This document shows positions 3,178 to 64,000 of a stretch of 64,000 nucleotides of DNA, one piece after another. How positions within the stretch are numbered: the stretch's first letter is position 1; every line of letters starts with the position of its first letter. The position numbers were made by a program, and so were the translations under genes. A model generated the notes under the pieces. It did no database searches and was not told the DNA's origin. It was given only the letters and a program-made list of their open reading frames with translations. This stretch comes from Cronobacter universalis NCTC 9529. GTDB taxonomy: Bacteria; Pseudomonadota; Gammaproteobacteria; Enterobacterales; Enterobacteriaceae. The DNA is taken from positions 4,154,001 through 4,218,000 of the forward strand of contig NZ_CP012257.1 in the NCBI RefSeq assembly GCF_001277175.1, given 5' to 3'.

Positions 3178-3876
3178 ATGAATAAAATCCTGTTAGTTGA
3201 TGATGACCGCGAGCTGACGTCCCTGTTAAAGGAATTGCTCGACATGGAAGGGTTTAATGTCCTCGTTGCCCATGATGGCGAACAGGCGCTTGACCTCCTG
3301 GATGACAGCATCGACCTGCTTTTGCTCGACGTGATGATGCCGAAGAAAAACGGCATTGATACTTTGAAAGAGCTTCGCCAGACACACCAGACACCCGTTA
3401 TTATGTTGACCGCGCGCGGCAGCGAGCTGGATCGCGTGCTCGGCCTTGAGCTGGGCGCCGATGACTACCTGCCGAAACCGTTTAACGACCGCGAACTCGT
3501 GGCCCGTATTCGCGCGATTTTGCGCCGTTCGCACTGGAGCGAACAGCAGCAGAACAGCGACAGCGGTTCGCCGACGCTGGAAGTGGACGCGCTGAGCTTG
3601 AATCCTGGCCGCCAGGAAGCGAGCTTCGATGGCCAGACGCTGGAGCTCACCGGTACCGAATTCACGCTGCTTTACCTGCTGGCGCAGCACCTGGGCCAGG
3701 TGGTATCGCGCGAACATTTAAGCCAGGAAGTGCTCGGCAAACGTCTGACGCCGTTCGATCGCGCGATCGATATGCACATTTCCAACCTGCGCCGTAAATT
3801 GCCGGAGCGTAAAGACGGCCATCCGTGGTTTAAAACCCTGCGCGGACGCGGCTATCTGATGGTTTCCGCTTCATGA
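3178..3876 (+). CDS. cpxR: Response regulator CpxR
   Basis: This OmpR/PhoB-family regulator, phosphorylated by CpxA, controls envelope protein-folding and repair genes. It is 232 residues long. The receiver domain (1-120) has the acidic pair in LLVDDDREL, the phospho-acceptor D51 in LLLLDVMMPKKNG, the switch threonine in VIMLTARG and the conserved lysine in YLPKPFNDREL. The C-terminal winged helix ends in WFKTLRGRGYLMV. A good ribosome site (CGGAGG) precedes the ATG. The stop overlaps the cpxA start in ATGA, so the two are translationally coupled. Confidence 0.98.
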   Translation: MNKILLVDDDRELTSLLKELLDMEGFNVLVAHDGEQALDLLDDSIDLLLLDVMMPKKNGIDTLKELRQTHQTPVIMLTARGSELDRVLGLELGADDYLPKPFNDRELVARIRAILRRSHWSEQQQNSDSGSPTLEVDALSLNPGRQEASFDGQTLELTGTEFTLLYLLAQHLGQVVSREHLSQEVLGKRLTPFDRAIDMHISNLRRKLPERKDGHPWFKTLRGRGYLMVSAS

Positions 3877-48147: not shown

Positions 48148-48151
48148 CCGT

Positions 48152-48841
48152 ATGAATTCTCAGCGTTACGCGCGTATCTGCGAGATGCTGGCCCGGCGTC
48201 AGCCCGATCTCACAGTCTGCATGGAGCAGGTGCATAAGCCGCATAATGTTTCGGCTATCATCCGCACCGCAGACGCGGTGGGCGTGCATGAAGTTCACGC
48301 CGTCTGGCCCGGAAACCGCATGCGTACCATGGCTTCTTCCGCCGCAGGCAGCAACAGCTGGGTGGAAGTGAAAACGCATCGCAACATCGGCGATGCGGTG
48401 GGCCATTTGAAAGCGCGCGGCATGCAAATCCTCGCGACTCATCTTTCTGACAAGGCCGTCGATTTTCGTGAAATCGACTATACGCGCCCGACCTGCATCC
48501 TGATGGGCCAGGAAAAAACCGGGATTACCGAAGAGGCGTTACGCCTGGCAGACCAGGACATCATCATTCCGATGATCGGCATGGTGCAGTCCCTTAACGT
48601 TTCCGTCGCCTCCGCGCTTATCCTTTACGAAGCGCAACGCCAGCGGCAGAACGCGGGCATGTACCAGCGCGCCAACAGCACCCTGCCTGAAGAAGAACAG
48701 CAGCGCCTGCTGTTTGAAGGCGGCTACCCGGTGCTGGCGAAAGTGGCGAAGCGTAAAGGCCTGCCCTACCCTCGCGTGAATGAGCATGGCGAAATCGACG
48801 CGCCGCAGGCCTGGTGGGCCACTATGCAGGCTGCGGAGTAA
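48152..48841 (+). CDS. trmH: tRNA (guanosine-18-2'-O)-methyltransferase
   Basis: TrmH (SpoU) methylates the 2'-OH of G18 in the D-loop of tRNA. It is a 229-residue SPOUT enzyme with KPHNVSAIIRTADAVGV (motif 1), ILMGQEKTGI (motif 2) and IPMIGMVQSLNVSVASALILYE (motif 3, trefoil knot). It lies four bases after spoT and three before recG. Confidence 0.97.
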   Translation: MNSQRYARICEMLARRQPDLTVCMEQVHKPHNVSAIIRTADAVGVHEVHAVWPGNRMRTMASSAAGSNSWVEVKTHRNIGDAVGHLKARGMQILATHLSDKAVDFREIDYTRPTCILMGQEKTGITEEALRLADQDIIIPMIGMVQSLNVSVASALILYEAQRQRQNAGMYQRANSTLPEEEQQRLLFEGGYPVLAKVAKRKGLPYPRVNEHGEIDAPQAWWATMQAAE

Positions 48842-48844
48842 ACG

Positions 48845-50926: not shown

Positions 50927-51338
50927 CGCCACGGTTTATCTCTCTTTTCTATGAAGACCGGACTTTTTAATCGCGTCCTTCCTCTTCCCGCCTCGCATGT
51001 TTTGACTCTGATATGTATATATGGCGCCACAAAAATTCACACAATGAATAACATTCTTTAACCCGCCCCTTTCACTATTTTTTATAAACGCCTGCTTATA
51101 AAAAATATCAACGTTATCTTGTACATTCATAATGCAATGACTACGGCAATTAAATCCTTCTAAAAAAGAAAAGGAATTTATATTTAAATAAAGTCTTCTG
51201 ATACACACATTGATGATGATAAAAGTAGCTGTAATATTCATGAAGAAAATAATGCATAAGCATTTTCTTTATTAATATTGAGGAGCACAATTAATCAAGA
51301 AAGATCCACCCTACACCTCCAATAATTTAAACCCAGGG

Positions 51339-51356
51339 TATTTTCATTTACCCTAA
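51339..51356 (+). promoter_or_regulatory. Upstream motif shared with other pilin leaders, copy 1
   Basis: TATTTTCATTTACCCTAA, 76 bases before the first pilin start. Similar strings precede three later pilin genes (56264-56279, 57107-57120, 61068-61083). Function unknown; it could be a promoter or regulator element copied with the genes. Confidence 0.35.
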
Positions 51357-51390
51357 AGTACGTATGGATCTGTACATAAGTTTTATTGTG

Positions 51391-51412
51391 GGAGTCACTT
51401 TAAAGTGCCTCC
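51391..51412. promoter_or_regulatory. 22-base palindrome just before the first pilin
   Basis: GGAGTCACTTT (51391-51401) and AAAGTGCCTCC (51402-51412) are reverse complements except for one mismatch. The palindrome ends about 20 bases before the start codon and before the AAGGA ribosome site. It could be an operator for a dimeric regulator or an RNA hairpin in the leader. Confidence 0.5.
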
Positions 51413-51431
51413 TGAAAAAGGATTGTTTATC

Positions 51432-51971
51432 ATGAAAAAAATCACATCAGCCCTGGCGCTGAGCACTCTTTTACTCGCTGGTTTTGCACAAGCAGAAACC
51501 AATGATGTCGCAGCTACAGTTGCGATTTCAGGCACCGTTCAAACAGCAACGCCTGGCTGTACTGTCGAATTTGTCGAACCGACGGTAGATATTGGTAGTC
51601 GTACTATTAGTTCTTTGCCATTCCAGGGACACAATGTCAATAAAGCACAGATCAGAGAAGTTACTGCCAAGTTGGTGGGTAATTGCACTGATGAAGGACA
51701 GCTGGTCGCTAATGTTTCCTTTACCGGGCCAGTCGCCAATGCAGAGGGCGATGCTCTGATGAATATGGCCACGGGTTCTGGCGCCGCTACAGGGCTAGGC
51801 GTAGGTATTTACAGCCTTGCTGGTAATGTCATTATCCCTGACGGTAGATTAATACCAGGAACCGGCACCGATAAAACAATCTTCTACGTTGGTATGGTCA
51901 AACTGAACGGTGCAACGCCGACCGCAGGTAAAGTGCAGTCTTCTTTAACCATGCAGGTTGAGTCTCTGTAA
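51432..51971 (+). CDS. FimA-type fimbrial subunit, first and most divergent (pilin 1)
   Basis: This is a 179-residue pilin of the FimA/PapA superfamily and the probable major shaft subunit, because it stands alone ahead of the chaperone and has a hairpin after it. It has a signal peptide (MKKITSALALSTLLLAGFAQA), a donor strand starting ETNDVAATVAISGTV, C43 and C85 forming the fold disulfide, the family stretch NAEGDALMNMA...GLGVGIY, and glycine 14 residues from the end. It ends QVESL, without a penultimate aromatic residue. I chose ATG 51432, nine bases after AAGGA; GTG 51405 is unlikely because it would hide the signal peptide. Confidence 0.9.
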   Translation: MKKITSALALSTLLLAGFAQAETNDVAATVAISGTVQTATPGCTVEFVEPTVDIGSRTISSLPFQGHNVNKAQIREVTAKLVGNCTDEGQLVANVSFTGPVANAEGDALMNMATGSGAATGLGVGIYSLAGNVIIPDGRLIPGTGTDKTIFYVGMVKLNGATPTAGKVQSSLTMQVESL

Positions 51972-51989
51972 TCATTTTAAAAGTAATAA

Positions 51990-52019
51990 AACCCGTTGAT
52001 ATGTATTTATCATCGGGTT
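51990..52019 (+). terminator. Hairpin between pilin 1 and the chaperone gene
   Basis: AACCCGTTGAT (51990-52000) and ATCATCGGGTT (52009-52019) pair over 11 positions with one mismatch; the loop is eight bases and no U-run follows. In other fimbrial operons a stem-loop here partly ends transcription or protects the pilin mRNA so pilin exceeds the assembly proteins. Confidence 0.6.
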
Positions 52020-52053
52020 ATTCCTCACTACAGGTAATATTAGGTTTTATCAA

Positions 52054-52761
52054 ATGAAAAAACTACTCCTGACAACAATCCTTGCCGCAAGTTGCTGGTC
52101 AGGAATATGTAATGCTGCGTTGACATTAAGCGCTGATCGCCTGGTGTATAATGAAAAAGACGGTGATGCCTCGATAACGATCCACAGTAATGAAGATCGC
52201 GCCTATTTAGTCCAGTCCTGGCTGGATGCTGGCGACAGCACGGTAAAAAAAGACTTACCGTTTGTTGTGACGCCACCGCTTTTTCGTCTCGCGCCTAAAA
52301 GCGATAACGTGATTCGTATTGTTTATCTGGGTAATGGTTTGCCAGCTGACCGCGAAAGCCTTTTCTGGCTTGATGTAAAAGGCGTACCGGGCCTGAACGA
52401 TGAAGAGTCGAAAGTCGAAAACCGCATGGTGCTGGCCATTAATAACCGTATTAAGTTTTTCTACCGCCCTGCTGGCCTGAAAGGCGATCCGGGCGAAGGC
52501 GTTAAAAATGCCCGCTGGAGCCGTTCCGGCAATAAGCTGACCGTAGATAACGCATCCCCTTATTACCTGGTATTAAGCAAAATTAATGCAGATAAAGAGG
52601 CTATCAAGGTTTCGGTTGTAGATAACAACACCGTTATTCCGCCATTTGGGAAAAAATCATACACGCTGAAACATACGCCAGCGAACGGTTCCAGCGTTGA
52701 GTGGGCCGGTATTAACGATTTTGGCGTGGCCTCTCAGACTTATTCTCAGCAGCTTGAATAA
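52054..52761 (+). CDS. Periplasmic fimbrial chaperone (PapD/FimC family)
   Basis: This periplasmic chaperone of 235 residues completes the fold of each pilin by donating its G1 strand and hands it to the usher. It has a signal peptide to about residue 21 (SWSGICNA), the conserved LSADRLVYNEKDGDASI with the arginine that grips the pilin carboxyl end, and NRIKFFYRP with the partner lysine (about 130-140). The F1-G1 loop is of the short type found with FimA-like pilins. It is the only chaperone gene in the island and so should serve all ten pilins and the tip. It is 13 bases before the usher. Confidence 0.93.
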   Translation: MKKLLLTTILAASCWSGICNAALTLSADRLVYNEKDGDASITIHSNEDRAYLVQSWLDAGDSTVKKDLPFVVTPPLFRLAPKSDNVIRIVYLGNGLPADRESLFWLDVKGVPGLNDEESKVENRMVLAINNRIKFFYRPAGLKGDPGEGVKNARWSRSGNKLTVDNASPYYLVLSKINADKEAIKVSVVDNNTVIPPFGKKSYTLKHTPANGSSVEWAGINDFGVASQTYSQQLE

Positions 52762-52774
52762 CTGAAAGGGCGCT

Positions 52775-55237
52775 ATGCGTGGTAGCAAAATAAAGTGGCT
52801 CGCCTCTTTTGTTATGTCGGCCATTTTCTGTCGAGCGGTGACAGCAGGCGAGTATTTCGATCCAGGCCTTCTTCAGGATGTGAATGGCAAAGCGGCATTA
52901 AGCGATACCAGCTTATTAAGCCAGGGGTACCAGCCCGCAGGGACGTACCGCGTTCATATTAACGTGAATGACAAGCCAGTGATGATAAGCAGCGTGCGGT
53001 TTGAACAGGGTAAAGACAAGCAGCTCATTGCCTGCCTTTCTTTCAAAGCCTACCAAAAGCTGGGGGTGGATATGAGCAAGGTCAGTTCTAAAGCAGAAGA
53101 TAACGAAGCCAAAAACAGCTGCGTTCCCATGGAAGAACAAGTTCCTGGTACTAAGCTGGCGTTTGACTTCTCGAAGCTGCAGCTGGATATCATCATTCCA
53201 CAAACGGTATTGCGTGATGAAAATGTGCAGGGTGTGCCTGAAGAAGAGTGGGACGAAGGTATTCCGGCACTGGTCAGTAATTACCAGCTCTCAGGTCAGC
53301 AATACCTAAAAAAAGGCGAAGGTGCCGCGAATACCGTGTATGCCAATCTGACCAACGGCGTGAACGTTGGGGCCTGGCGCTACCGTAATAATTCGACGCT
53401 CAGCAACGGCGAAGGCTGGCATAGCATCACTAATTATGTCGAAACGGCGATTCACACGCTGAAAAGCGAGCTGACCATTGGCGATTCCAGTACGCCTGGC
53501 GATGTATTCGATAGCCTGCTGGTCCGGGGCGTACAGCTTTCTTCAGACGATGACATGTTGCCCGATCAACTGAACGGCTTTGCGCCCATTATTCGTGGTA
53601 TCGCCAAAAGTAATGCGCGCGTCACGATACGTGAGAATGGTTATGTGATCTATCAGCGCTCCGTACCGCCGGGACCCTTTGTGATAAACGATCTCGCCTC
53701 GGTATCAGACGGCGGAAAACTGGAAGTTGTCGTGACGGAAGCGGACGGTTCAGAGACGCATAACACGCTCTCTTACTCCAGCGTACCGCAGCTGTTACGT
53801 ACCGGGCAGATAAAATACAACCTGTCAGTGGGACGCTATTTATCCGGTACCGGTTCGGTTGAAGATAAACCTGAAATTTTGCAGGCCGTCGTCAGCCGCG
53901 GTTTACCGCTGAACACCACGCTATATGGCGGCGCGCAATACCATGATCGCTACCATGCGTTGAGTCTGGGCCTGGGCGTTGATATGAAGAGTCTGGGCGG
54001 TATCGCAGCGGACATCACGCAGAGCAAAGGGCGTCGTGGCGACACGCAGGAAGGCTCCGGGAAAATGGTACGCCTGACGTACCGTAATTACCTCCCGGAT
54101 ACCGATACGCAGATTCAGATGGATAACCGCTATTACTCAGGCGATTACCTCTCTTTCAGCGACTGGGCCACGGCTGAAGATCTCTTCGCCGACACGCGTA
54201 AACGCCGGGAATACAACCTGACGGTGAACCAGTCGCTGGATGAGTCGAACAGTTTTTATACCACGCTGAGCCGTAGCGAAAACGTAGACAGCTCGGTATC
54301 GCGAATGTGGCAAATCGGCTGGAACGGCTCGGTAAAAAACGTCAGCTTCTCTCTTGCATACAGTATGTCCCGTAACGAGGGCGAGATTGACTGGGATAAA
54401 CAGTTGGCGCTAACGCTATCCATTCCGCTGAGCGAAACCTTTCCGACAGCACAGCCGATGGTGAACTATACGGCCACATCCGGCCTTGAAAGCGACATCA
54501 ATAACCAGTTGGGCATTACCGGGAAAATTGGCGACCACCAAAATATGACATGGAACTCACAGCTTTCCTATGCCGCTAAACACGGCGAGCCAGACACAAA
54601 ATCCGGCTCTGCCGGCCTGGATTATCAGGGCAATTACGGCGACATGAACGTCACCTATAACGCTGACGACAACCATTATATTTCGTGGAACGCCTCGGGC
54701 AGCATTGTTGGCCACCGTCATGGCGTGACGTTTGGTCGTAACTCGTCCGGTAGTATGGCGCTGGTCTCTATCCCAGGCGGCGCGGATATCCCGCTAAATA
54801 CCGGGCAGGATATGCATACCGATTCTCGCGGTTATGCGTTGATCACTGATTTACGTCCGTACCATCGTAATAGCCTGAGTATTGATACGCGCGCCGCAAG
54901 TAAAGATCTCGACTTTGCCAGCACATCAACCCAACTGGTGCCGACTAAAGACGCCGTCGTGCTCGCTGAATTCACCGCTATCAGAGGCCGTAAAGCGGTG
55001 ATCACAATTAAACACCACGGTGATGTACTGCCTTTTGGCACCCGGGCGCGGATCGAGGGCATGGATAATGTGTATTACGTGGGTGATAAAGGTCAGGTTT
55101 ACCTTAATGCCGTACCGGATAAAGGCACGCTGACATTCAAGTGGGGCGAAGACCAGACCTGCTCAACGCCATTTGAGATCCCGGTAAATCAGTCGCCTGC
55201 ATTACCGATTCTGCTGTTAACGCTTAACTGTCAATGA
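52775..55237 (+). CDS. Fimbrial outer-membrane usher (FimD/PapC family)
   Basis: The usher is the outer-membrane pore that assembles and exports the fimbria. It is 820 residues, normal size. After a signal peptide the N-terminal chaperone-binding domain begins EYFDPGLLQDVNGKAALSD. The middle is a 24-strand barrel with a plug region (VQLSSDDDMLPDQLNGFAP, about 245). Two C-terminal domains end with a disulfide pair (TCSTPFEIP and LTLNCQ). It overlaps the adhesin start by four bases. It is the only usher for the whole pilin array. Confidence 0.95.
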   Translation: MRGSKIKWLASFVMSAIFCRAVTAGEYFDPGLLQDVNGKAALSDTSLLSQGYQPAGTYRVHINVNDKPVMISSVRFEQGKDKQLIACLSFKAYQKLGVDMSKVSSKAEDNEAKNSCVPMEEQVPGTKLAFDFSKLQLDIIIPQTVLRDENVQGVPEEEWDEGIPALVSNYQLSGQQYLKKGEGAANTVYANLTNGVNVGAWRYRNNSTLSNGEGWHSITNYVETAIHTLKSELTIGDSSTPGDVFDSLLVRGVQLSSDDDMLPDQLNGFAPIIRGIAKSNARVTIRENGYVIYQRSVPPGPFVINDLASVSDGGKLEVVVTEADGSETHNTLSYSSVPQLLRTGQIKYNLSVGRYLSGTGSVEDKPEILQAVVSRGLPLNTTLYGGAQYHDRYHALSLGLGVDMKSLGGIAADITQSKGRRGDTQEGSGKMVRLTYRNYLPDTDTQIQMDNRYYSGDYLSFSDWATAEDLFADTRKRREYNLTVNQSLDESNSFYTTLSRSENVDSSVSRMWQIGWNGSVKNVSFSLAYSMSRNEGEIDWDKQLALTLSIPLSETFPTAQPMVNYTATSGLESDINNQLGITGKIGDHQNMTWNSQLSYAAKHGEPDTKSGSAGLDYQGNYGDMNVTYNADDNHYISWNASGSIVGHRHGVTFGRNSSGSMALVSIPGGADIPLNTGQDMHTDSRGYALITDLRPYHRNSLSIDTRAASKDLDFASTSTQLVPTKDAVVLAEFTAIRGRKAVITIKHHGDVLPFGTRARIEGMDNVYYVGDKGQVYLNAVPDKGTLTFKWGEDQTCSTPFEIPVNQSPALPILLLTLNCQ

Positions 55238-56217
55238 ACGCTATGAAAATCTGCTTTCGTCTGGCGCAAGCCGCCATTCTGGTGGTAACTGCAAAAAGCC
55301 TGTTGGCACCGGCTTTCGCAGAAGGCTGCAAAATTGAAAAGATGCCGTCTACGGTAACGGTGCCGGTTTCGGTTCCGTTGCAGGATAATATCAACACATT
55401 GCCGGTGGGCAGCGTGGTATACAAAAGAGAGGCGACGCTTGCACAATTAAGCGGTACGCATGACGTCATCACCTCTGAGTGCCAGACCAAAATCAGGAAA
55501 CGCCTGAACGGAAAAATGCCTGGCCAGCAGAGCGGGCAAAATACCTATGCCACCTCCTTGCCTGGCCTTGGTATTCGAATCACGTTGATTTATGACAAAC
55601 CTGGCTCGCCGCACAGGGAGTGGGTTCTGCCCTTCTCTGCGCAAACGCAGGATATCAGCCATAAATCCATTACGTCTGACGATATTAAACTGCGGCTTGA
55701 GGTCATCAAAACCGGGCCAATAGCTCAGGGCGGCGTGCTGAATTTCCGTATACCTTCCCTGATTGCGCTGAGCGACAACGCCTTTGTGGTGAACCTGGCC
55801 ATGACGCTTATTTCTCCAAAAGCGCACTGTACGATTCAGGTACTAACGCCGCAGGTTGAATTGCCGCCGGTAAAAATTAGCGAGCTGCAAAAAAACGGCG
55901 GCAAAACCGCCCAGCCTGTGAATGTGAATTTGCTGTGTATGAATACCAGCAAAGCCAGCATTAATATTGAAGGAGTGAATGATACCAGCTATCCCACGGT
56001 ATTCAGGAATGTAGCGCCAGAGCGCCCGGCAAAAAATGTGGGTATCGAGATGTTATTTAACGGCGTGGTCATGCGTCCTGACTCTCCGTTAGATCTATCG
56101 TTACCTAATCAAAATAGCTATGCCTTGCCGCTCTCTGTACGTTACGCCAAAACGGGCGACAACTTAACGGGCGGAAACGTCAAAGCACAAATAACGCTGA
56201 GAATAAATTACCTCTAA
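55234..56217 (+). CDS. Two-domain fimbrial tip adhesin
   Basis: This 327-residue exported protein is larger than a pilin and is placed right after the usher, the typical site for a tip adhesin. The first ~190 residues show no pilin motif and are the likely receptor-binding domain. The last ~135 residues have a pilin-like arrangement with two cysteines (KAHCTIQVL, VNLLCMNTS) and a glycine 14 residues from the end. It ends TLRINYL, with a penultimate tyrosine, unlike the pilins in this island. The receptor is unknown. A second ATG at 55243 is also possible. Confidence 0.82.
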   Translation: MNAMKICFRLAQAAILVVTAKSLLAPAFAEGCKIEKMPSTVTVPVSVPLQDNINTLPVGSVVYKREATLAQLSGTHDVITSECQTKIRKRLNGKMPGQQSGQNTYATSLPGLGIRITLIYDKPGSPHREWVLPFSAQTQDISHKSITSDDIKLRLEVIKTGPIAQGGVLNFRIPSLIALSDNAFVVNLAMTLISPKAHCTIQVLTPQVELPPVKISELQKNGGKTAQPVNVNLLCMNTSKASINIEGVNDTSYPTVFRNVAPERPAKNVGIEMLFNGVVMRPDSPLDLSLPNQNSYALPLSVRYAKTGDNLTGGNVKAQITLRINYL

Positions 56218-56263
56218 CATCGGGGTGGCAGTTACGTCTTGTTATTAGGGAAATATGGAAAAG

Positions 56264-56279
56264 TATTTTTACCCTTAAT
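56264..56279 (+). promoter_or_regulatory. Upstream motif shared with other pilin leaders, copy 2
   Basis: TATTTTTACCCTTAAT, 55 bases before pilin 2. It resembles copies before pilins 1, 3 and 9. Confidence 0.35.
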
Positions 56280-56333
56280 GGGAAGATTGCTTTTCGCCTA
56301 TTTTATTTCGAAAATTTAAAAGGATGTAAAATT

Positions 56334-56879
56334 ATGAAAAAGACGATTTTAAGCCTGGCAGTTTCCGCATTGTTCATGACGGGTATGGTGCATGCTGAGA
56401 CTAACCCGAACGACGTGTCTGCAACGCTGAGCGTCACCGGGACCGTTGTCGAAGATATTGCTGATGCCTGTACGGTGGTTACCAACAAACAGGCCGTCGC
56501 CCTGTCCGGCGATGTTACCGATCTGATTAACCAGGGCCAGGATTCGACGTCCGTTGAAACGGTGCAACTGAGTATTGTTGGTGAAAACTGCGCCAGCAAA
56601 GTGGAAGCCGGTACGATGGCTTACAAATTTACCGGTACCGCCGATAACGCAGATGGCACCGTCCTCGCTAACAGCGATGCTTCCTCAACGGCTGCAAAAG
56701 GCGTTGGTGTGGGTATTTTTACCGGCGCGAACAAACCTGTGAAAGTTAACAGCGCGGATCATGTCATCGCTTCTGCTTCCGGTACAATCATCGGTCTGCA
56801 GATGGTTAAACTGAACGGCCAGAATGCTGAAGCCGGTAACGTAACCAGCTCAGTAACCATTGAAATCGAACGTCTGTAA
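56334..56879 (+). CDS. FimA-type fimbrial subunit (pilin 2)
   Basis: This pilin is 181 residues, the first of nine in the downstream array. It has a signal peptide (MKKTILSLAVSALFMTGMVHA), the donor strand ETNPNDVSATLSVTGTV, cysteines in DACTVV and GENCAS, LINQGQDST, FTGTADNADGTVLANS and GVGVGIF, and the end SVTIEIERL. The leader AAAGGATGTAAAATT supplies the ribosome site and is shared almost unchanged with pilin 3, as is most of the protein. They look like the most recent duplicate pair. Its role as major, minor or alternate subunit is not known. Confidence 0.88.
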   Translation: MKKTILSLAVSALFMTGMVHAETNPNDVSATLSVTGTVVEDIADACTVVTNKQAVALSGDVTDLINQGQDSTSVETVQLSIVGENCASKVEAGTMAYKFTGTADNADGTVLANSDASSTAAKGVGVGIFTGANKPVKVNSADHVIASASGTIIGLQMVKLNGQNAEAGNVTSSVTIEIERL

Positions 56880-56931
56880 AAGCTATCTGCGCACCTGATA
56901 CAAGCGCGGCCGTCTTTAGTAGTTTTTATTC

Positions 56932-56953
56932 AGCCTCCTTTCAAAAGGGGGCT
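56932..56953 (+). terminator. Hairpin after pilin 2
   Basis: AGCCTCCTTT (56932-56941) and AAAGGGGGCT (56944-56953) pair with one G-T wobble. There is no following U-run, so it may be an mRNA end-stabiliser. Confidence 0.45.
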
Positions 56954-57106
56954 GCATATGCTGGAGATGCGGTAAAGATAGCTCTGCCATACCTGGTTAA
57001 TAAGCTTATTAGCGCGAAGCGCAGCATCGCTTTTTGCGTAATTGGGTATTACAGGTAAGCAAGCTGATTATTTACCGGGAGCGCGGATCGTTAAAAACAG
57101 GAAAGT

Positions 57107-57120
57107 AACATTACCTCTAA
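57107..57120 (+). promoter_or_regulatory. Upstream motif shared with other pilin leaders, copy 3
   Basis: AACATTACCTCTAA, 44 bases before pilin 3; a weaker relative of the copies before pilins 1, 2 and 9. It is followed, as at pilin 2, by a similar TTGCTTTT and TTTAAAGGATGTAAAAT leader. Confidence 0.3.
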
Positions 57121-57163
57121 AAGGTAAGTTGCTTTTTATCGGTTTAATTTTAAAGGATGTAAA

Positions 57164-57715
57164 ATGATGAAAAAGTCTATTTTAGGACTCGTCCTTTCCA
57201 CCGTTTTTGTCGCTGGCGCAGTACAGGCGGACACGAATCCGAACGATGTTTCCGCCACACTGAGCGTAACCGGTACGGTTGTGGAAGATGTGGTTGACGC
57301 ATGTACCGTTACGACGGATAAAGCATCAGTCGCTTTGATCGGAGATGCTGACAAGATGATTGAGCAGGGCAAAGACGCCAGCGTTGCAACGCCGGTACGC
57401 CTGAATATCACCGGTGCAAATTGCCTCGATAAAGTGATTGCCGGCAAAATTGCCTATAAATTCGTCGGCACCGCCGATAACGCTGGCGGTACCGTTCTCG
57501 CTAACAGCGACAACTCTGCGGAAGCGGCTAAAGGCGTTGGCGTCGGTGTTTTTAACGCCAGTACCGGGAAACCTTTAAAAATCAATTCCAGCGATCATCT
57601 GGAAGCCACGACCGGCGGAGACGTCATTGGTCTGACGATGGTCAGATTGACTGGTCAAAGCGTAGAAGCCGGGAATGTCACCAGCGCCTTAACGATTGAG
57701 ATCGAACGACTGTAA
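57164..57715 (+). CDS. FimA-type fimbrial subunit (pilin 3)
   Basis: This pilin is 183 residues, or 182 from the second ATG at 57167. It has a signal peptide ending AGAVQA, TNPNDVSATLSVTGTVVEDV, cysteines in DACTVT and GANCLD, MIEQGKDAS, FVGTADNAGGTVLANS, GVGVGVF and the end LTIEIERL. It is clearly the sister of pilin 2; differences cluster on surface-exposed stretches between conserved blocks. Leader and ribosome site match those of pilin 2. The 284-base gap before it holds the pilin 2 hairpin and copy 3 of the shared upstream motif. Confidence 0.88.
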   Translation: MMKKSILGLVLSTVFVAGAVQADTNPNDVSATLSVTGTVVEDVVDACTVTTDKASVALIGDADKMIEQGKDASVATPVRLNITGANCLDKVIAGKIAYKFVGTADNAGGTVLANSDNSAEAAKGVGVGVFNASTGKPLKINSSDHLEATTGGDVIGLTMVRLTGQSVEAGNVTSALTIEIERL

Positions 57716-57737
57716 GTCTGATACGTGATAGTTATAA

Positions 57738-57766
57738 ATGCAGATCCCCTCTTAAGCGATCTGCAT
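57738..57766 (+). terminator. Hairpin after pilin 3
   Basis: ATGCAGATC (57738-57746) and GATCTGCAT (57758-57766) form a perfect 9-bp stem with an 11-base loop; the following CTTTCATT is weakly U-rich. Confidence 0.5.
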
Positions 57767-57796
57767 CTTTCATTATTCAGCACAGGATCAAAAGAC

Positions 57797-58345
57797 ATGA
57801 AAATTTCATGTTACTGCCTTGCCACTGCTGTCGGTTTTCTCTGCATGACTGCCCATGCTGAGAACGCTGTGAAAGATATTTCTGCCACGCTGAACATTAC
57901 AGGAACCGTGGAGCAAAGCGCGCCAGCTTGCAGCGTCCTTCTGAGTCAGAATACGCTTCAGGTTACTGAAAATATGTCAGAAGTCATTGACCAGGGAAGC
58001 AGTAATTATGCGCTTACGGGCGGCACAATTACGATTAATGCGACCGGTGGTTCGCCATGCGTTTCTCTTATGGACCAGGGAAAAATGATTTATCGCTTTG
58101 TCGGTACAGCCGATGACGCGATGGGCACCGTATTGGCAAATGCCGATCGCTCAGCCACGGCGGCAAAAGGGATGGGTATAGGTATTTACGGAATGGATTC
58201 TTCACCCATTAGCGTTAATACCGATACCCTCACAGCCTCATCCAAAGGGAATCACGTAAACTTTACGATAGTAAAACTGGCAGGGCAGAATGCCGTCGCG
58301 GGTAATATTCAGACTACTGTGACGGTTCAAATAGAACGCTTGTAA
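57797..58345 (+). CDS. FimA-type fimbrial subunit (pilin 4)
   Basis: This pilin is 182 residues from ATG 57797, nine bases after AGGA; an upstream extension in frame would bury the signal peptide. Its signal (MKISCYCLATAVGFLCMTAHA) is unusual in holding three cysteines, which are removed on export. Mature features are KDISATLNITGTV, cysteines in APACSV and GSPCVS, VIDQGSS, FVGTADDAMGTVLANA, GMGIGIY and the end VTVQIERL. It is more divergent from pilins 2 and 3 than they are from each other. Confidence 0.87.
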   Translation: MKISCYCLATAVGFLCMTAHAENAVKDISATLNITGTVEQSAPACSVLLSQNTLQVTENMSEVIDQGSSNYALTGGTITINATGGSPCVSLMDQGKMIYRFVGTADDAMGTVLANADRSATAAKGMGIGIYGMDSSPISVNTDTLTASSKGNHVNFTIVKLAGQNAVAGNIQTTVTVQIERL

Positions 58346-58356
58346 TTTAAGCAGTA

Positions 58357-58383
58357 ATAAGCGGGTTAATTTGTCCCGCTTAT
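58357..58383 (+). terminator. Hairpin after pilin 4
   Basis: ATAAGCGGG (58357-58365) and CCCGCTTAT (58375-58383) form a perfect 9-bp stem with a nine-base loop; no U-run follows. Confidence 0.5.
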
Positions 58384-58411
58384 CATTCATGTTATGTATA
58401 GGATAATAAGC

Positions 58412-58963
58412 ATGAGAAAACCTATTTTATGCGCCATGATTTCTGCGCTTTTTGCCATGAGCGTTGCTCATGCGGAGCCAGTGGATAATGTAATGTCATC
58501 GTCTGATATTACTGTTGATGGCGCCATTACATCCGGCAACGGCGCATGCACGGTCTCTATGAATAAAAGCTCAATTAGCCTGTTGGCCGATAAGAGTACG
58601 ATTGTTCCGCAGAGCCAGATGAAAAGCGATCGTTTCAACGGTTCCCTTTCTGTTTCTCTGACCGGGGATGAGATCTGTAATCAGCGTATTCAGGAAGGTA
58701 AAATTGCCGTTCGTTTCATGGGCCCTGCCGATGACGTGGAAGGCAGTGTTTTTGCGAATACCGCCAACGGTGAAAATGCGGCAAAAGGTGTTGGCGTGGG
58801 ATTGTTTTTAAGTAATCGTGCGCGCATCACTATTAATCAGGGCGCTATTCCCGTCAGTATGAAGCCTTTAGATTTGAGCGCGCAAGTGGTGGGTCTTACC
58901 GGCCAGGATATCGTCGAAGGTAATGTTCAGGCGATGATCACGGTAGAAGTTGTTCGTCTTTAG
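58412..58963 (+). CDS. FimA-type fimbrial subunit (pilin 5), divergent
   Basis: This pilin is 183 residues from ATG 58412, with AGGAT upstream. Signal peptide MRKPILCAMISALFAMSVAHA. It is the least typical of the array. The donor-strand region reads MSSSDITVDGAI instead of the ATLSVTG pattern, the QG motif found in the other pilins is replaced by VPQSQMKSD, and it ends EVVRL rather than the IERL-type end. Both cysteines (GACTVS, DEICNQ) and GVGVGLF remain, as does glycine 14 from the end. The frame is intact, so it is probably functional. It may have a specialised position in the fibre. Confidence 0.85.
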   Translation: MRKPILCAMISALFAMSVAHAEPVDNVMSSSDITVDGAITSGNGACTVSMNKSSISLLADKSTIVPQSQMKSDRFNGSLSVSLTGDEICNQRIQEGKIAVRFMGPADDVEGSVFANTANGENAAKGVGVGLFLSNRARITINQGAIPVSMKPLDLSAQVVGLTGQDIVEGNVQAMITVEVVRL

Positions 58964-59099
58964 AAATAACCATCCTGAACATAATATTTAAAATCATTTG
59001 TTCTATTTATGATTTATATCAGGCCGTAATGCGTCGGTATAGTGAATTTAGTTTCTCAAAATTATCATTTTAATAGAACATTTGCTTTGGAGTTATAAT

Positions 59100-59648
59100 A
59101 TGAAATTATCTTTATCAGGGTTGATGATACCTGCTCTGTTCATGACGGCGATGGCGCACGCAGAAATTAATTCCTCTGATGTTCCCGCGACGCTTTCTGT
59201 TACCGGTAATGCCACCGCCGACGCGGAGGCGCTTTGTAATCTCAGTACGAGCGTGAGCGCAGTCTATTTACGCGGGGATGTTTCCAGTCTGATTAATCAG
59301 GGCGACGAAGCGAACAATATGACATTCGTGCCGCTTCGTATTGAAGGAAACACGCAATGTAATGATCTGATTGAGCAAGGGCGCCTGTCTTATCGGTTCT
59401 CAGGTAACGCAGATAGCAATCAGGGTAACGCTCTGGCGAATGCGAGTACCGGGGAAAATGCGGCAACAGGTGTTGCCATCGGGCTGTTCGATAACAAAGG
59501 TAAACCCATCACTATTAATAGCACCGCTATTACCGTCTTACCGAAAACAGGCCAGGGCGTCGGTTTTCAGGTCGTCAAACTTAAAGATCAGACAGTAACA
59601 GCAGGCACGATTCATGGTGTTCTGACGATCAACGTTGAACGATTGTAA
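59100..59648 (+). CDS. FimA-type fimbrial subunit (pilin 6)
   Basis: This pilin is 182 residues from ATG 59100, after TTTGGAG. Signal peptide MKLSLSGLMIPALFMTAMAHA. Mature features are SSDVPATLSVTGNA, cysteines in EALCNL and NTQCND, LINQGDEAN, FSGNADSNQGNALANA, TGVAIGLF and the end LTINVERL. Only 42 bases separate it from pilin 7, so the two are very probably on one transcript. No hairpin separates them. Confidence 0.87.
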   Translation: MKLSLSGLMIPALFMTAMAHAEINSSDVPATLSVTGNATADAEALCNLSTSVSAVYLRGDVSSLINQGDEANNMTFVPLRIEGNTQCNDLIEQGRLSYRFSGNADSNQGNALANASTGENAATGVAIGLFDNKGKPITINSTAITVLPKTGQGVGFQVVKLKDQTVTAGTIHGVLTINVERL

Positions 59649-59690
59649 GTGAAAAAACAACTGTAACTTTAGTTTATAAGGATGGTAACA

Positions 59691-60260
59691 ATGAAGAAAA
59701 TTATATCGGTTATGACAATTGCAGCGGCATGTTTCTCTGCAGGCGCCTATGCCGAAACACCCGCACAGGACGTTTCAGCGACGGTTGCTATTTCCGGTGT
59801 GTTGGTTGGTCCTCAAAATCACGCCTGTCAGATTGTGCTGAATAAGAACGTTATTAATCTTACTGGCTCGACAAAAAGCTTAATTGAACAGGGCCAGAAT
59901 GCTACCGCTCCCCAGGAAGTCACATTCAGCGTCTATAACGTCAACCTGCCTTATCAATCCCTGTGCGATAAAGACATTTATGATGGAAAAATCGCCGTCA
60001 GATTTACCGGCGTCTACGATAACGCTGATGGCACCGCGTTTGCTAATAGCGCTACAGGCGATAGCGCGGCAGCAGGCATAGGTATTGGCTTATTTAACCA
60101 TGATAAAACGCCTCTTGACGCCAGTGAAGTGTATAAGCTCGGTACCGGCGCAAATACCGCGACCAAAATTATCGGCTTGCAGCTCATTAAGTTAAAAGGT
60201 GAGACCGCTACAGCAGGCACCGTAGCAGGTAACATTACATTCCAGATTGAACGTTTGTAA
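59691..60260 (+). CDS. FimA-type fimbrial subunit (pilin 7)
   Basis: This pilin is 189 residues from ATG 59691, after AAGGA with an eight-base spacer. Signal peptide ends SAGAYA. Mature features are AQDVSATVAISGVL, cysteines in NHACQI and QSLCDK, LIEQGQNAT, FTGVYDNADGTAFANS, GIGIGLF and the end ITFQIERL. It is followed immediately by the best intrinsic terminator of the island, so transcription of pilins 2-7 should mostly end here. Confidence 0.87.
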   Translation: MKKIISVMTIAAACFSAGAYAETPAQDVSATVAISGVLVGPQNHACQIVLNKNVINLTGSTKSLIEQGQNATAPQEVTFSVYNVNLPYQSLCDKDIYDGKIAVRFTGVYDNADGTAFANSATGDSAAAGIGIGLFNHDKTPLDASEVYKLGTGANTATKIIGLQLIKLKGETATAGTVAGNITFQIERL

Positions 60261-60266
60261 TCGTAT

Positions 60267-60295
60267 GCGCTTACCTTCGGGTAAGCGCTTTTTTT
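60267..60295 (+). terminator. Strong intrinsic terminator inside the pilin array
   Basis: GCGCTTACC (60267-60275), TTCG tetraloop, GGTAAGCGC (60280-60288), then seven T residues to 60295. It splits the array into pilins 2-7 and pilins 8-10. Confidence 0.93.
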
Positions 60296-60316
60296 ACATA
60301 CAGCAACGGAAGCAAT

Positions 60317-60898
60317 ATGAAATCACATAATCTGATAAGTTTTATTATTCCGGGGTTGCTCTTCGCAGGAGCGGTGCAGGCCGAAACCGCTTCTCAGGAT
60401 ATACCAACGGCTCTTTCCATCACCGGAAAAATTTCTTCTGCCAGTGAGAGCTGCAGGGTTACGCTTTCGCAGGAGAGTCTCTATTTTACAATGAATGCCG
60501 ATGAGGTCATTTATCAGGGTAATGACGCCACACAACCTCAAATAGTGACCATTACCATTAAAGATGGTGATGTTAATCACTCCACCTGCTCTCAGGCAGT
60601 TCTCGACGGCCATATTGCAGTAAAATTTGTCGGCGAAGCGGATAACGCAGACGGCACTGCTCTTGCCAATGAATATGCCTTACAAAACGACGCTGCGACT
60701 GGCGTGGGTATCGGCTTTTTTAAAGAAGACCATTCGCCTGTTGCTGTTAATAAAGATGTTTTAAAAGTGAATACTGTTGGCCCGGTGACCAACGAGGGAA
60801 CCCTTAAATTTGGCGTACAACCTGTCAGGCTAACGAATCAGACCATCACAGGCGGCAGAATTTCCGCAAGCGCAACCGTCGAAATTGAACGTCTCTAA
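60317..60898 (+). CDS. FimA-type fimbrial subunit (pilin 8)
   Basis: This pilin is 193 residues from ATG 60317, with CGGAAG upstream. Signal peptide ends LLFAGAVQA. Mature features are SQDIPTALSITGKI, cysteines in SESCRV and HSTCSQ, VIYQGNDAT, FVGEADNADGTALANE, GVGIGFF and the end ATVEIERL. Pilins 8, 9 and 10 are similar in their longer middle loop and form a second subgroup. Only 21 bases separate the end of the preceding terminator from its start codon, so it must depend on read-through or an unseen promoter within pilin 7. Confidence 0.87.
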   Translation: MKSHNLISFIIPGLLFAGAVQAETASQDIPTALSITGKISSASESCRVTLSQESLYFTMNADEVIYQGNDATQPQIVTITIKDGDVNHSTCSQAVLDGHIAVKFVGEADNADGTALANEYALQNDAATGVGIGFFKEDHSPVAVNKDVLKVNTVGPVTNEGTLKFGVQPVRLTNQTITGGRISASATVEIERL

Positions 60899-60912
60899 GC
60901 TTTTAAAAGAGC

Positions 60913-60944
60913 TAACCGCCATTTCAACATGAATGAAATGGTTA
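60913..60944 (+). terminator. Hairpin after pilin 8
   Basis: CCATTTCA (60919-60926) pairs perfectly with TGAAATGG (60934-60941), extended by TAA/TTA across a small bulge; no U-run follows. Confidence 0.4.
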
Positions 60945-61067
60945 AGATCGCGTGTAAGTGGCAGGAAATAAACCCTGTCTGGCAATACGGCTTTATTTTC
61001 CTTATGTCGCAGGGAAATAATCGCCAGCAGCAGGGAGTATGTCTGATTCCGACGCCATCTTTGAGAC

Positions 61068-61083
61068 TATTTTCACCTTAATA
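61068..61083 (+). promoter_or_regulatory. Upstream motif shared with other pilin leaders, copy 4
   Basis: TATTTTCACCTTAATA, 23 bases before the pilin 9 start; it resembles the copies before pilins 1 and 2. Confidence 0.3.
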
Positions 61084-61105
61084 AATCAGCTTTAAGGGAA
61101 CAACG

Positions 61106-61687
61106 ATGAAAATCCGATCATTACATACCGTATTCGCCGCGCTGCTGATGGCAAGCACCGCACAGGCGATGGCGGATACACAGGATCAACCGGCACACTT
61201 GTCCATATCCGGCGTCATTGCGCCATCAGTCGCAGGCTGTAGCGTCTCTCTTGATAAGTCGGTTGTTTATATGCAGGAAAATATAAATCGCCTGCCCATG
61301 CAGGGTAACAATGCGGTGAATCCCACCGCCGTTATGGCTTATGTCTCCGGTATTAATCCGGCTGGTCAGGGAAGCGTGGAATGTAACGACGCGGTGAAAG
61401 AGGGACACATTGCGCTGAAGTTTACGGGTACGGCAGATAGCGCGGATGGCACCACGCTTGCGAATATGTATAACGAAAGCAATGGTGCTAAAGGCGTGGG
61501 TATCGGCATTTTCGGGCCAACAAAAGAACCTGTTGCCATCAACACGGGCTTACTGGAAAACCTGGCGCTCCTGCCCGATCTGAGAGGCGCCATTCAGTTT
61601 AACGTTGAAATGGTGAAACTCACCGATCGGCCGGTGAGCGCAGGTGTAGTCGCCTCTGCGCTCACCGTGCAAATCGAGCGCCTGTAG
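61106..61687 (+). CDS. FimA-type fimbrial subunit (pilin 9)
   Basis: This pilin is 193 residues from ATG 61106, with AGGGA upstream. Signal peptide MKIRSLHTVFAALLMASTAQA. Mature features are QDQPAHLSISGVI, cysteines in VAGCSV and SVECND, LPMQGNNAV, FTGTADSADGTTLANM, GVGIGIF and the end LTVQIERL. The LPMQG stretch resembles the LPFQG of pilin 1. A 207-base leader with the shared upstream motif suggests its own promoter. Confidence 0.87.
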   Translation: MKIRSLHTVFAALLMASTAQAMADTQDQPAHLSISGVIAPSVAGCSVSLDKSVVYMQENINRLPMQGNNAVNPTAVMAYVSGINPAGQGSVECNDAVKEGHIALKFTGTADSADGTTLANMYNESNGAKGVGIGIFGPTKEPVAINTGLLENLALLPDLRGAIQFNVEMVKLTDRPVSAGVVASALTVQIERL

Positions 61688-61693
61688 TATCAG

Positions 61694-61718
61694 TCTCCTC
61701 TCTATTTGGGAGAAGAGA
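61694..61718 (+). terminator. Hairpin after pilin 9
   Basis: TCTCCTCTC (61694-61702) and GAGAAGAGA (61710-61718) pair with one mismatch; no good U-run follows. Confidence 0.4.
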
Positions 61719-61854
61719 TTACATAAAAACGGAATGGATACCCGTTATTCCCGGCACTTTAAAATTCATTCTCCCGCTTTATGTATAAGACGCAACATCA
61801 GGATAAATGTCGCCCTGATTGATGCACCCTTTATTATTACATCAAGGAGTTATC

Positions 61855-62409
61855 ATGAATAAAAAGCATCTGACAGGATTGTTTTTCGCTACGCTCCTGT
61901 CTTCAGGCATAGCAAATGCCGCAACAAATGATATTCCGGCAACGGTATCGATAACCGGAAAGGTGAATGCAAAGCTGGATCGTTGCCAGGTCACGCTCAA
62001 TAAAGAGACGGTTTCACTTTATACCCATGTTTCAGAGTTGGTAAATCAAGGCAGTAACGCCACAGCGCCTGAAATGACGAATATTCACATCAGCAATGTC
62101 GGCGAAGGGGACTCCTGCGCTAAGGCCGCACAAGATGGTCATATTAGCGTGAGGTTTATCGGTAAAGCCGATGATGCGGATGGCACGACATTAGCCAATA
62201 GCTATCTCTCACAAAACAGCGCGAAAGGCATCGGCATGGGCATCTTCAGGGAAGATAACACACCGGTTGCTATTAATAGCGATACGTTGCTCGTCCCGGA
62301 TGCTACCGGAAAAACTGTTTTCGGTATCCAGGCTGTGAAATTAACTAATCAGACCGTGTCGCCGGGTACGCTTTACGGCAGTCTCATTGTCCAGATTGAG
62401 CGCCTTTAA
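61855..62409 (+). CDS. FimA-type fimbrial subunit (pilin 10)
   Basis: This pilin is 184 residues from ATG 61855, with the strong site AAGGAG. Signal peptide MNKKHLTGLFFATLLSSGIA. Mature features are TNDIPATVSITGKV, cysteines in LDRCQV and GDSCAK, LVNQGSNAT, FIGKADDADGTTLANS, GIGMGIF and the end LIVQIERL. It is the last gene of the array and is followed by a long perfect hairpin. It is closest in layout to pilin 8. Confidence 0.88.
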   Translation: MNKKHLTGLFFATLLSSGIANAATNDIPATVSITGKVNAKLDRCQVTLNKETVSLYTHVSELVNQGSNATAPEMTNIHISNVGEGDSCAKAAQDGHISVRFIGKADDADGTTLANSYLSQNSAKGIGMGIFREDNTPVAINSDTLLVPDATGKTVFGIQAVKLTNQTVSPGTLYGSLIVQIERL

Positions 62410-62414
62410 CAGAC

Positions 62415-62442
62415 TTTCCCCTCTCCTGCGGGAGAGGGGAAA
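62415..62442 (+). terminator. 12-bp hairpin at the end of the fimbrial island
   Basis: TTTCCCCTCTCC (62415-62426), TGCG loop, GGAGAGGGGAAA (62431-62442) is a perfect stem. No U-run follows, but its position after the last pilin fits an operon end. Confidence 0.65.
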
Positions 62443-62644
62443 TCGACACCACCCAGGCCTTTTCAGATCCTCTTTGAACACGCCTTCCTGACTCATCAAT
62501 GAGTGCTATCCGCCGGACGATATGCCTCGCTTTACCTGGTGGTCTCCAGTCTTCGCGGCGTCGCTAAGCATACCCGTATGCAATCGTTTGCTTTTGTGAT
62601 GCACTCCGCTAGAATGTCCGCTTTTCCACCGTGGGATTATGTCG

Positions 62645-64000
62645 ATGTCCGTTAACACCCTTGAGTCTGAAAATGCGCAAACGGTTGCGCCCGCGCAGAA
62701 TAGCGAACTGATTTACCGTCTGGAAGACCGGCCGCCCCTGCCGCAAACGCTGTTTGCCGCCTGCCAGCATCTTCTGGCGATGTTCGTTGCGGTGATCACA
62801 CCTGCGCTTTTGATCTGTCAGGCTCTGGGATTGCCCGCGCAGGACACCCAGCACATCATCAGCATGTCGCTGTTTGCCTCGGGCGTGGCATCGATTATTC
62901 AGATTAAAGCGTGGGGGCCGGTCGGCTCCGGGCTGCTTTCCATTCAGGGCACCAGCTTTAACTTCGTGGCGCCGCTTATTATGGGCGGTACGGCGCTGAA
63001 AACCGGCGGCGCGGACGTGCCGACCATGATGGCCGCGCTGTTTGGCACCCTGATGCTGGCGAGCTGCACTGAAATGGTTATCTCCCGCGTTCTGCACCTG
63101 GCGCGCCGCATTATCACACCGCTGGTTTCCGGCGTGGTGGTGATGATCATCGGTCTGTCGCTGATTCAGGTCGGGCTGACATCAATTGGCGGCGGCTATG
63201 CCGCGATGAGCGATCACACCTTCGGCGCGCCGAAAAACCTGCTGCTGGCGGGCGCGGTGCTGGCGGTGATTATTCTGCTTAACCGCCAGCGTAACCCGTA
63301 CCTGCGCGTCGCCTCGCTGGTAATTGCGATGGCGGTGGGTTATCTGCTGGCCTGGGCGATGGATATGTTGCCGCACACTGCGGCGCCTGCGCAAAGCGCG
63401 CTGATCATGATCCCCACACCGCTGCATTACGGGCTCGGCATCGACTGGAACCTGCTGTTGCCGCTGATGCTGGTCTTTATGATCACGTCGCTGGAAACCA
63501 TCGGCGATATCACCGCCACTTCTGACGTCTCCGAACAGCCGGTCTCCGGCCCGCTGTATATGAAACGCCTGAAAGGCGGCGTGCTGGCGAACGGTCTGAA
63601 CTCGTTTGTCTCCGCCGTGTTCAACACTTTCCCGAACTCCTGCTTCGGACAAAACAACGGCGTGATCCAGCTGACCGGCGTCGCCAGCCGCTATGTCGGT
63701 TTTGTGGTGGCGCTGATGCTGATTGCGCTTGGCCTGTTCCCGGCAGTGAGCGGTTTTGTTCAGCATATTCCTGAGCCGGTGCTGGGCGGCGCGACGATTG
63801 TGATGTTTGGCACCATCGCCGCCTCCGGCGTGCGTATCGTCTCCCGCGAGCCGTTAAACCGCCGCGCGATCATGATTATCGCGCTCTCGCTGGCGGTGGG
63901 CCTCGGCGTCTCGCAGCAGCCGCTGATCCTGCAGTTCGCGCCGGACTGGGTGAAAAACCTGCTCTCCTCCGGCATCGCCGCGGGCGGCATTACCGCCATT
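62645..64000 (+). CDS. xanP: Xanthine/H+ symporter XanP, C-terminus cut by window edge
   Basis: XanP (YicE) is an inner-membrane proton symporter for xanthine of the NAT/NCS2 family. The first 452 codons are present; from E. coli about 11 residues should be missing. It shows many membrane helices and the family motifs [30 protein letters not shown] and the NAT signature in [21 protein letters not shown] (about residue 335). I chose ATG 62645, eight bases after GGGA and matching the E. coli start; ATG 62639 is two codons upstream. It is the conserved flank on the right of the fimbrial island. Confidence 0.96.

Follow-up and report, generated by a model that had tools for sequence, protein, structure and literature searches.

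How does a single chaperone-usher machine come to be accompanied by ten intact pilin genes, and do those genes replace one another or contribute to one fiber? The question is raised by a fimbrial cluster of Cronobacter universalis NCTC 9529, located in a stretch of 64,000 nucleotides (NZ_CP012257.1, positions 4,154,001 to 4,218,000 of the forward strand, here called the window). The cluster comprises one chaperone, one usher, one adhesin, and ten pilin genes, all of them open and on the + strand as judged from open reading frames (ORFs), Pfam domains, and the sequence. One pilin gene (pilin U) lies 5' of the chaperone gene, and nine (slots 1 to 9) follow in tandem 3' of the adhesin gene. The original prediction of ten tandem pilins at 56334-62409 stands as to ten open frames on one strand, but that interval holds nine of them. 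Slot 1 alone combines high codon adaptation with a strong covarying hairpin just before its ribosome site. The reading that we favor, with a probability of about 0.6, is one shaft pilin whose mRNA is favored by the hairpin, together with a varying complement of minor pilins in the same fiber.

The hairpin leader and codon adaptation of slot 1

The codon adaptation index (CAI) sets slot 1, the first pilin after the adhesin, apart from the others. With the ribosomal operon as the reference, slot 1 reached 0.618, pilin U reached 0.451, and the other eight fell between 0.395 and 0.491. With a later, cleaned reference set of 22 genes, slot 1 scored 0.601, and the next of the ten, slot 2, scored 0.472. 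Over 15 loci from related genomes, the pilin with the highest CAI was slot 1 in 14 and slot 6 in one (G062), and the hairpin preceded this pilin in all 15. Two of these loci (L075 and L076) were found by the RNA model described below and lie outside its training set. In G062, both slots 1 and 6 carry the hairpin, and the pilin tree places slot 6, with moderate support, beside the slot-1 pilins of that cluster type.

Conservation extends over about 90 bases ahead of slot 1 in the first 13 loci and is also seen ahead of slot 6 of G062. Alignment of 15 sequences revealed a conserved RNA hairpin of 19 pairs, with 93.0% of 284 cells paired and covariation at 8 pairs (30 cells changed on both sides). 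On four of five measures, none of 500 shuffles reached the observed score, and on the fifth, 19 did; when the pairing was slid by 1 to 3 columns, only 44 to 58% of cells were paired. Ten basal pairs were present in 16 of 16 leaders, a set that includes two leaders outside the model and excludes the decayed slot-2 copy; nine of these pairs are invariant, and in the upper stem changes occur and are compensated. In alignment A5, the row of G335 is shifted by one base, with no effect on the pairs. Folded by itself, the window leader reaches -18.3 kcal/mol (z = -3.35), and 1 of 200 shuffles was as good. Within the window, slot 1 is alone in having a strong hairpin leader, and slot 2 has a decayed copy.

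A covariance model built from the 15 rows was used to search for further copies. In 21 stretches, the 15 training sites ranked first, and 15 further matches (E values of 0.012 to 5.1) consisted of the opposite strand of the same hairpins in 14 cases and a site before slot 2 of G295. Among 295 genomes of the family, 11 matched at an E value of 0.01, namely, the 10 with the usher and G002, whose match (41.3 bits) lies at a dehydrogenase-type gene with no pilin evident by eye and was taken as chance. Among 392 genomes, 13 matched at an E value of 0.001, all in the four genera that have the cluster. The new matches, in G389 and G335 (the two loci outside the training set), stop where the first pilin gene behind an adhesin gene begins, each in a cluster of this kind, and the hairpin-bearing pilin has the top CAI in each (0.658 and 0.578). 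The large searches used strict filters, so weaker relatives of the leader may have been missed. Rfam 15 gave no match in 50000-64000, and its best score in the leader was 18.5 bits compared to a gathering score of 41.2.

From these patterns we infer how the hairpin may act. The polycistronic mRNA would be cut or protected at the hairpin, the slot-1 segment would be more stable or better translated, and slot 1 would then form most of the rod. Pilin U and slots 2 to 9 would be made in small amounts, the tail being reached by read-through past hairpins and terminators. Stem-loops follow slot 1 in many loci, and other slots have them too. The terminator-like hairpin at 60267-60295 ends about 20 bases before slot 7 and leaves little room for a promoter, so slots 7 to 9 would depend on read-through or on internal promoters of the array. 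A promoter scan was uninformative (9 sigma-70-like sites versus a mean of 16.4 in shuffles), and no promoter match before slot 1 was common to all cluster types. A 9-of-12 match before slot 1 recurs in the three loci of the G296 type, but only about 4 bases separate its end from the start codon, which is too little for a working promoter.

The same structure could instead be a transcription attenuator, a terminator, or a DNA operator rather than an element that stabilizes or processes mRNA. We regard this as doubtful. U-rich sequence does lie 3' of the upper stem, and the invariant basal stem is also an inverted repeat in the DNA, as an operator would be. An operator is less likely because the spacing of the half-sites ranges from 49 to 57 nt and because of the covariation in the upper stem, and a terminator ahead of the most codon-adapted gene would be odd. 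A further proposal, which we put forward tentatively and think somewhat more apt to be wrong than right, is that the leader represents a new cis-acting RNA element, portable between pilin genes, which helps to make the pilin behind it the shaft pilin through overproduction. The identity of the fiber would then change when the element moves or is duplicated, and the other slots would be standing minor pilins for mixed fibers. Slot 2 of the window and slots 1 and 6 of G062 would represent stages of this turnover.

Several points weigh against a hairpin-favored shaft pilin with minor partners. Codon bias is an indirect proxy, the ribosomal genes of one species served as the reference for all genera, and the CAI gap in G108 is small (0.470 versus 0.457). 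The loci are related, so 15 of 15 does not amount to 15 independent trials, and the shuffle control of the hairpin was uncorrected for the kinship of the sequences. Slot 1 of G062 has the hairpin yet a modest CAI of 0.451, which indicates that the hairpin alone does not make a gene codon adapted. The low-level appearance of nine of the ten pilins is no proof that they enter fibers. Finally, 3 of the 15 loci have broken machinery as read, while their pilins are still open. In G295 (L036, 3160-4671), the chaperone frame is broken and pilin U is absent, with six downstream pilins open; in G296 (L039, 12603-15066), the usher has a TAG stop and its C-terminal part lies in another open frame; and in L075 the usher frame is short, although recG is also split there, making an assembly error possible.

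Ten pilins around one chaperone and usher

The original prediction described the pilins as intact, and this was confirmed: ten of ten have open frames, a signal-peptide-like start (judged by eye, without a predictor), two cysteines after residue 22, and a Shine-Dalgarno-like stretch upstream. Within the genome, they also resemble each other more than they do any other pilins. In a leave-one-out comparison, the profile of the other nine scored each pilin at 90 to 185 bits, and the same profiles gave at most 28 bits for the fimbrial proteins at the genome's 12 other PF00419 places. When the ten-pilin profile was searched against the genome, ten places passed an E value of 1e-8 among the 34 candidates scored, all within the cluster. 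The rest of the genome contains six ushers besides the 12 PF00419 places, and these profile scores rule out the pilins as subunits of ushers elsewhere, as far as sequence can tell. Pilin U is the most divergent member (26 to 38% identical to the other window pilins). Mean pairwise identity was 52% in the donor strand, 50% at the C terminus, and 34% in the body. Given this mutual closeness and the conservation of donor strand and C terminus, it is plausible that one chaperone-usher machine serves all ten pilins. The contrast between donor strand and body suggests that the accessory pilins could enter the same rod. We picture them as joining through the shared donor strand, where they would alter its surface or its end pieces.

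A penultimate tyrosine in the C-terminal strand is a hallmark of subunits of the type 1 and P pilus kind. A penultimate aromatic residue was found in 0 of 78 array pilins from 13 loci. The adhesin of the cluster retains one, and a penultimate tyrosine was present in 9 of 9 other pilin ends printed from the window genome (9 of the 12 places). The chaperone may possibly be coadapted to pilins that lack the penultimate aromatic residue.

Alternative major pilins or an antigenic switch had been suggested on the strength of the many copies. If one of the ten were expressed at a time and the fiber antigen were switched, as is possible for fim2, fim3, and the fimX-locus pilins of Bordetella, the presence of many open paralogs with one machine would be accounted for, and a multipilin system under one chaperone-usher set is described in passages of PMC12952627. 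The evidence from this locus makes such switching improbable. A single pilin has the codon bias of a major subunit, the same one that has the sole strong hairpin leader. Between 50901 and 62640 we found no runs of at least six G or C, eight A, or seven T and no five dinucleotide repeats, except the T-run of the terminator. No exact DNA match longer than 15 nt was found between the ten window pilins, and no gene conversion was detected; with this longest match and with most slots grouping by orthology, the paralogs do not look like recombinant mosaics. Inverted repeats of 9 to 18 nt in the two stretches searched were of the chance type and included no convincing invertible element. No recombinase was noted by eye among the ORFs of 48000-64000, and the genome was not searched for one. 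Dam-type GATC spacing 5' of pilin U was considered and dropped, as it is not conserved.

Slot conservation, loss, and exchange across genera

The cluster was found in all seven species of the genus (one genome per species) and in three neighboring genera, and an usher at least 50% identical to that of the window occurs in 10 of 295 family genomes (at most three candidates scored per genome). The loci were annotated by script. Copy number, which the original prediction had proposed comparing across related genomes, does vary: the 15 loci have 1 to 9 downstream pilins. The numbers are 9 (G000, the window genome), 6 (G295), 3 (G297), 4 (G108), 6 (G296), 8 (G215), 6 (G288), 4 (G122, Siccibacter turicensis), 6 (G225, S. 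colletis), 5 (G099), 1 (G210), 7 (G062), 1 (G264), 7 (L075), and 5 (L076). These counts exclude G019 and G250, whose ushers are 38 to 39% identical and which have no downstream pilin; L001 and L002 duplicate the contigs of L042 and L043, and each contig entered the counts a single time. In 12 of the 15 loci, recG lies directly 5' of the cluster. The contig of G225 ends at the recG position, yet its downstream flank is the same; neither flank of G264 falls within its stretch; and 1.7 kb upstream was covered for L076. The query for the downstream flank was translated in a frame shifted by one base, and its matches still mark DNA that agrees. Usher matches of 56 to 65% were also named Lelliottia, Citrobacter, Enterobacter, Scandinavium, and Salmonella, a match at the level of the usher protein. 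A plasmid location of the cluster was rejected, since the 2275 plasmid records that matched all fell below 60% identity.

In a tree of 80 pilins, with weak support at 13 of 76 inner branches, pilins of different species mostly grouped by slot, the slots being collinear, and three cluster types emerged: G000, G295, G108, G122, and G297; G296, G225, and G099; and G215, G288, and G062. Retention of order and identity by most slots is what one would expect of an ordered fiber of the Pap/Fim type, in which every accessory pilin has a set position and a dedicated role as adaptor, terminator, or anchor, and the N-terminal segment of slot 4 is indeed distinct. Most other donor strands are alike, and downstream pilins numbering anywhere from 1 to 9 are ill suited to a fixed chain of adaptors, so we consider an ordered fiber unlikely.

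Selection was assessed with 43 pilin pairs, including one paralog pair. Synonymous divergence (dS) was finite in 34 pairs, with ratios of nonsynonymous to synonymous divergence (omega) of 0 to 0.26; dS was <1 in 18 of these 34 and saturated in nine of the 43. Among the window genes, pilin U and slots 1, 2, 4, 5, 8, and 9 had finite dS, several values being >1, slots 6 and 7 had saturated dS only, and slot 3, for which no orthologous DNA was available, lay outside the comparison. The omega of G295 slot 6 used 133 codons because a GTG start was missed; the gene is open. Most of the pilins occupy orthologous slots that are old and collinear, and purifying selection acts on them where it could be assessed; no relaxation was seen there. 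A graveyard or reservoir of duplicates with little present use would fit the ease with which slots are lost and the broken machinery noted above, but it is very improbable given these omega values, the ten open frames of the window, and a single pilin remnant among the gaps of 13 loci. Beside pilin U of G099 (L044, about 3826-3995), a C-terminal fragment of a second pilin U follows immediately.

Loss of slots was seen directly in G288: compared with G215, which it otherwise matches, it lacks 1,189 bases containing slots 5 and 6 but retains the final codons of slot 6. In G297, an element that we take to be IS1-like lies between slots 1 and 6 and was perhaps the agent of the loss of slots 2 to 5. 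Slot content also differs between strains: C. sakazakii has a slot-4 protein on record, yet slot 4 is missing from G297, whose pilin U is that of C. sakazakii (99%). The short slot-4 proteins P0055, P0058, and P0060 were first taken as truncations; P0060 is identical to the final part of the G295 gene, which is open, and may reflect a wrong start.

Whole clusters have also been exchanged. The flanks of G000 and G108 are 94 to 96% identical and their clusters 74%. Between G215 and G288, dS was 0.70 in recG and 0.18 in the usher gene, and between G108 and G122, which belong to two genera, it was 1.12 in recG and 0.42 in the adhesin gene. The recG tree holds the genus together (support of 93/94), and the usher tree rejects the genus as one clade (approximately unbiased test, p-AU = 9.7e-51). 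Ushers named C. dublinensis form two sets relative to the window, at 62% and 67 to 72% identity. The cluster is therefore present as deeply separated alleles that have passed between species and between genera. Over evolution, slots would be lost, duplicated, and exchanged along with whole cluster alleles, and the fiber would diversify without an on-board switch. In G225 (L043), the usher groups with one cluster type (86/90) and the pilins group with another, a hint of recombination within the cluster.

Relation to known systems and layout of the locus

In all likelihood, the locus is fimbrial cluster 6 of Cronobacter, which is already in print (ESA_04067-73; PMC3500316), judging by layout rather than by comparison of sequences, since the seven genes of ESA_04067-73 fit the layout of G297 with its three downstream pilins. 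The window form differs in having nine. The table in PMC3500316, which covers seven species, marks cluster 6 as present in 12 of 12 strains, and PMC7545074 names ESA_04071 as an usher and ESA_04072 as a chaperone, of which ESA_04071 would be the usher of the present locus. The passages on cluster 6 in these two papers contain no account of slot structure, allele exchange, or the hairpin leader, and no description of an array or leader of the window type was found in the open-licence literature in the parts consulted. The label "poorly described" is therefore apt for the pilin array and misplaced for the cluster itself. In the Cronobacter core, three gamma-1 clusters are counted in the relevant part of PMC3680222.

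The array is a variant of arrays already published, and the leader is the newest part, with no Rfam match. According to passages of PMC12952627, Bordetella bronchiseptica fimX with FimBCD likewise has adjacent pilin genes that vary in number and type by strain and share one chaperone-usher set; there, the pilin genes are unlinked to fimBCD, have poly(C) tracts, and are thought to recombine. In contrast, the window array adjoins its machine and has no poly(C)-type tract and no long shared stretches. The beta-fimbriae of C. sakazakii (ESA_03512-21), another locus that we compared by description only, combine one chaperone and one usher with seven genes for probable major subunits (passages of PMC7545074); they are confined to C. 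sakazakii in the table of PMC3500316, and a list in PMC3680222 gives them also for one C. dublinensis subspecies. With the type 1 and P pili (fim, pap), the cluster shares fold and machine, the fold matches being FimF, FimA, FimI, PapH, and FimH. It differs in that the putative major pilin is not the first gene and in the C-terminal residue described above. In the F1845 (daa) operon, the major pilin gene comes late and the mRNA is processed to a stable form, with the processing site in the small gene daaP. The likeness would be a processed major-pilin mRNA, with the site here being a noncoding hairpin after the adhesin gene rather than daaP. The sections seen of PMC11316696 contain nothing on processing of major-pilin mRNA.

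If the favored reading is true, it provides a simple rule for one machine with many pilins, in which an RNA leader, rather than gene order, determines stoichiometry, and it explains how clusters gain and lose pilins without losing the fiber. It would also add a conserved bacterial RNA element that has no Rfam entry. Copy number alone should not be taken as antigenic switching.

The cluster is flanked by recG (ending at 50926) and a gene of the xanthine/uracil permease family (from 62639, past the window edge).

Table 1. Features of the fimbrial cluster, in window coordinates
Feature	Coordinates	Strand	Evidence and remarks
Pilin U	51432..51971	+	PF00419, 53 bits; CAI 0.451; least like the other nine
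Stem-loop between pilin U and chaperone	51990..52019	+	Sequence read by eye
PapD-type periplasmic chaperone	52054..52761	+	PF00345, 126 bits; PF02753, 43 bits
Outer-membrane usher	52775..55237	+	PF00577, 498 bits; PF13954; PF13953
Two-domain tip adhesin	55234..56217	+	PF00419; PF22003 (MrkD-like receptor domain), 28.5 bits versus cutoff of 27
Conserved RNA hairpin leader of the putative major pilin	56246..56333 (hairpin 56250-56304)	+	Ends in ribosome site; alignment, covariance-model searches, fold z = -3.35
Pilin slot 1, putative major shaft pilin	56334..56879	+	Pfam; CAI 0.618 (0.601 with cleaned reference)
Degenerate copy of hairpin leader 5' of slot 2	57090..57163	+	43.2 bits, E = 2.5e-4; itself 1 of the 15 training rows
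Pilin slot 2	57164 (or 57167)..57715	+	Nearest to slot 1 (65% identical); second-highest CAI
Pilin slot 3	57797..58345	+	PF00419, 23.4 bits versus cutoff of 25.6; pilin fold predicted
Pilin slot 4, differing donor strand	58412..58963	+	ORF, Pfam, donor-strand comparison
Pilin slot 5	59100..59648	+	ORF, Pfam
Pilin slot 6	59691..60260	+	PF00419, 24.0 bits, below cutoff of 25.6
Strong intrinsic-terminator-like hairpin between slots 6 and 7	60267..60295	+	
Pilin slot 7	60317..60898	+	PF00419, 43.6 bits
Pilin slot 8	61106..61687	+	PF00419, 30.8 bits
Pilin slot 9	61855..62409	+	PF00419, 24.1 bits, below cutoff of 25.6

The PapD-type chaperone gene adjoins an usher gene with PapC_N, barrel, and PapC_C domains, the arrangement that defines a chaperone-usher system. 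Seven of the ten pilins passed the PF00419 cutoff, and slots 3, 6, and 9 fell slightly under it (23.4 to 24.1 bits). A model of slot 3 (predicted local distance difference test [pLDDT] score of 80) matched FimF and FimA in Foldseek and had no structure before residue 46, consistent with a free N-terminal extension. The adhesin has the MrkDrd domain in its N-terminal half and PF00419 in its C-terminal half, and the top Foldseek matches of its model, which is of moderate quality (pLDDT of 71), were FimH chains. A protein bearing the name C. universalis is 97% identical to slot 2, and near relatives of the window pilins in general mostly bore the name Cronobacter.

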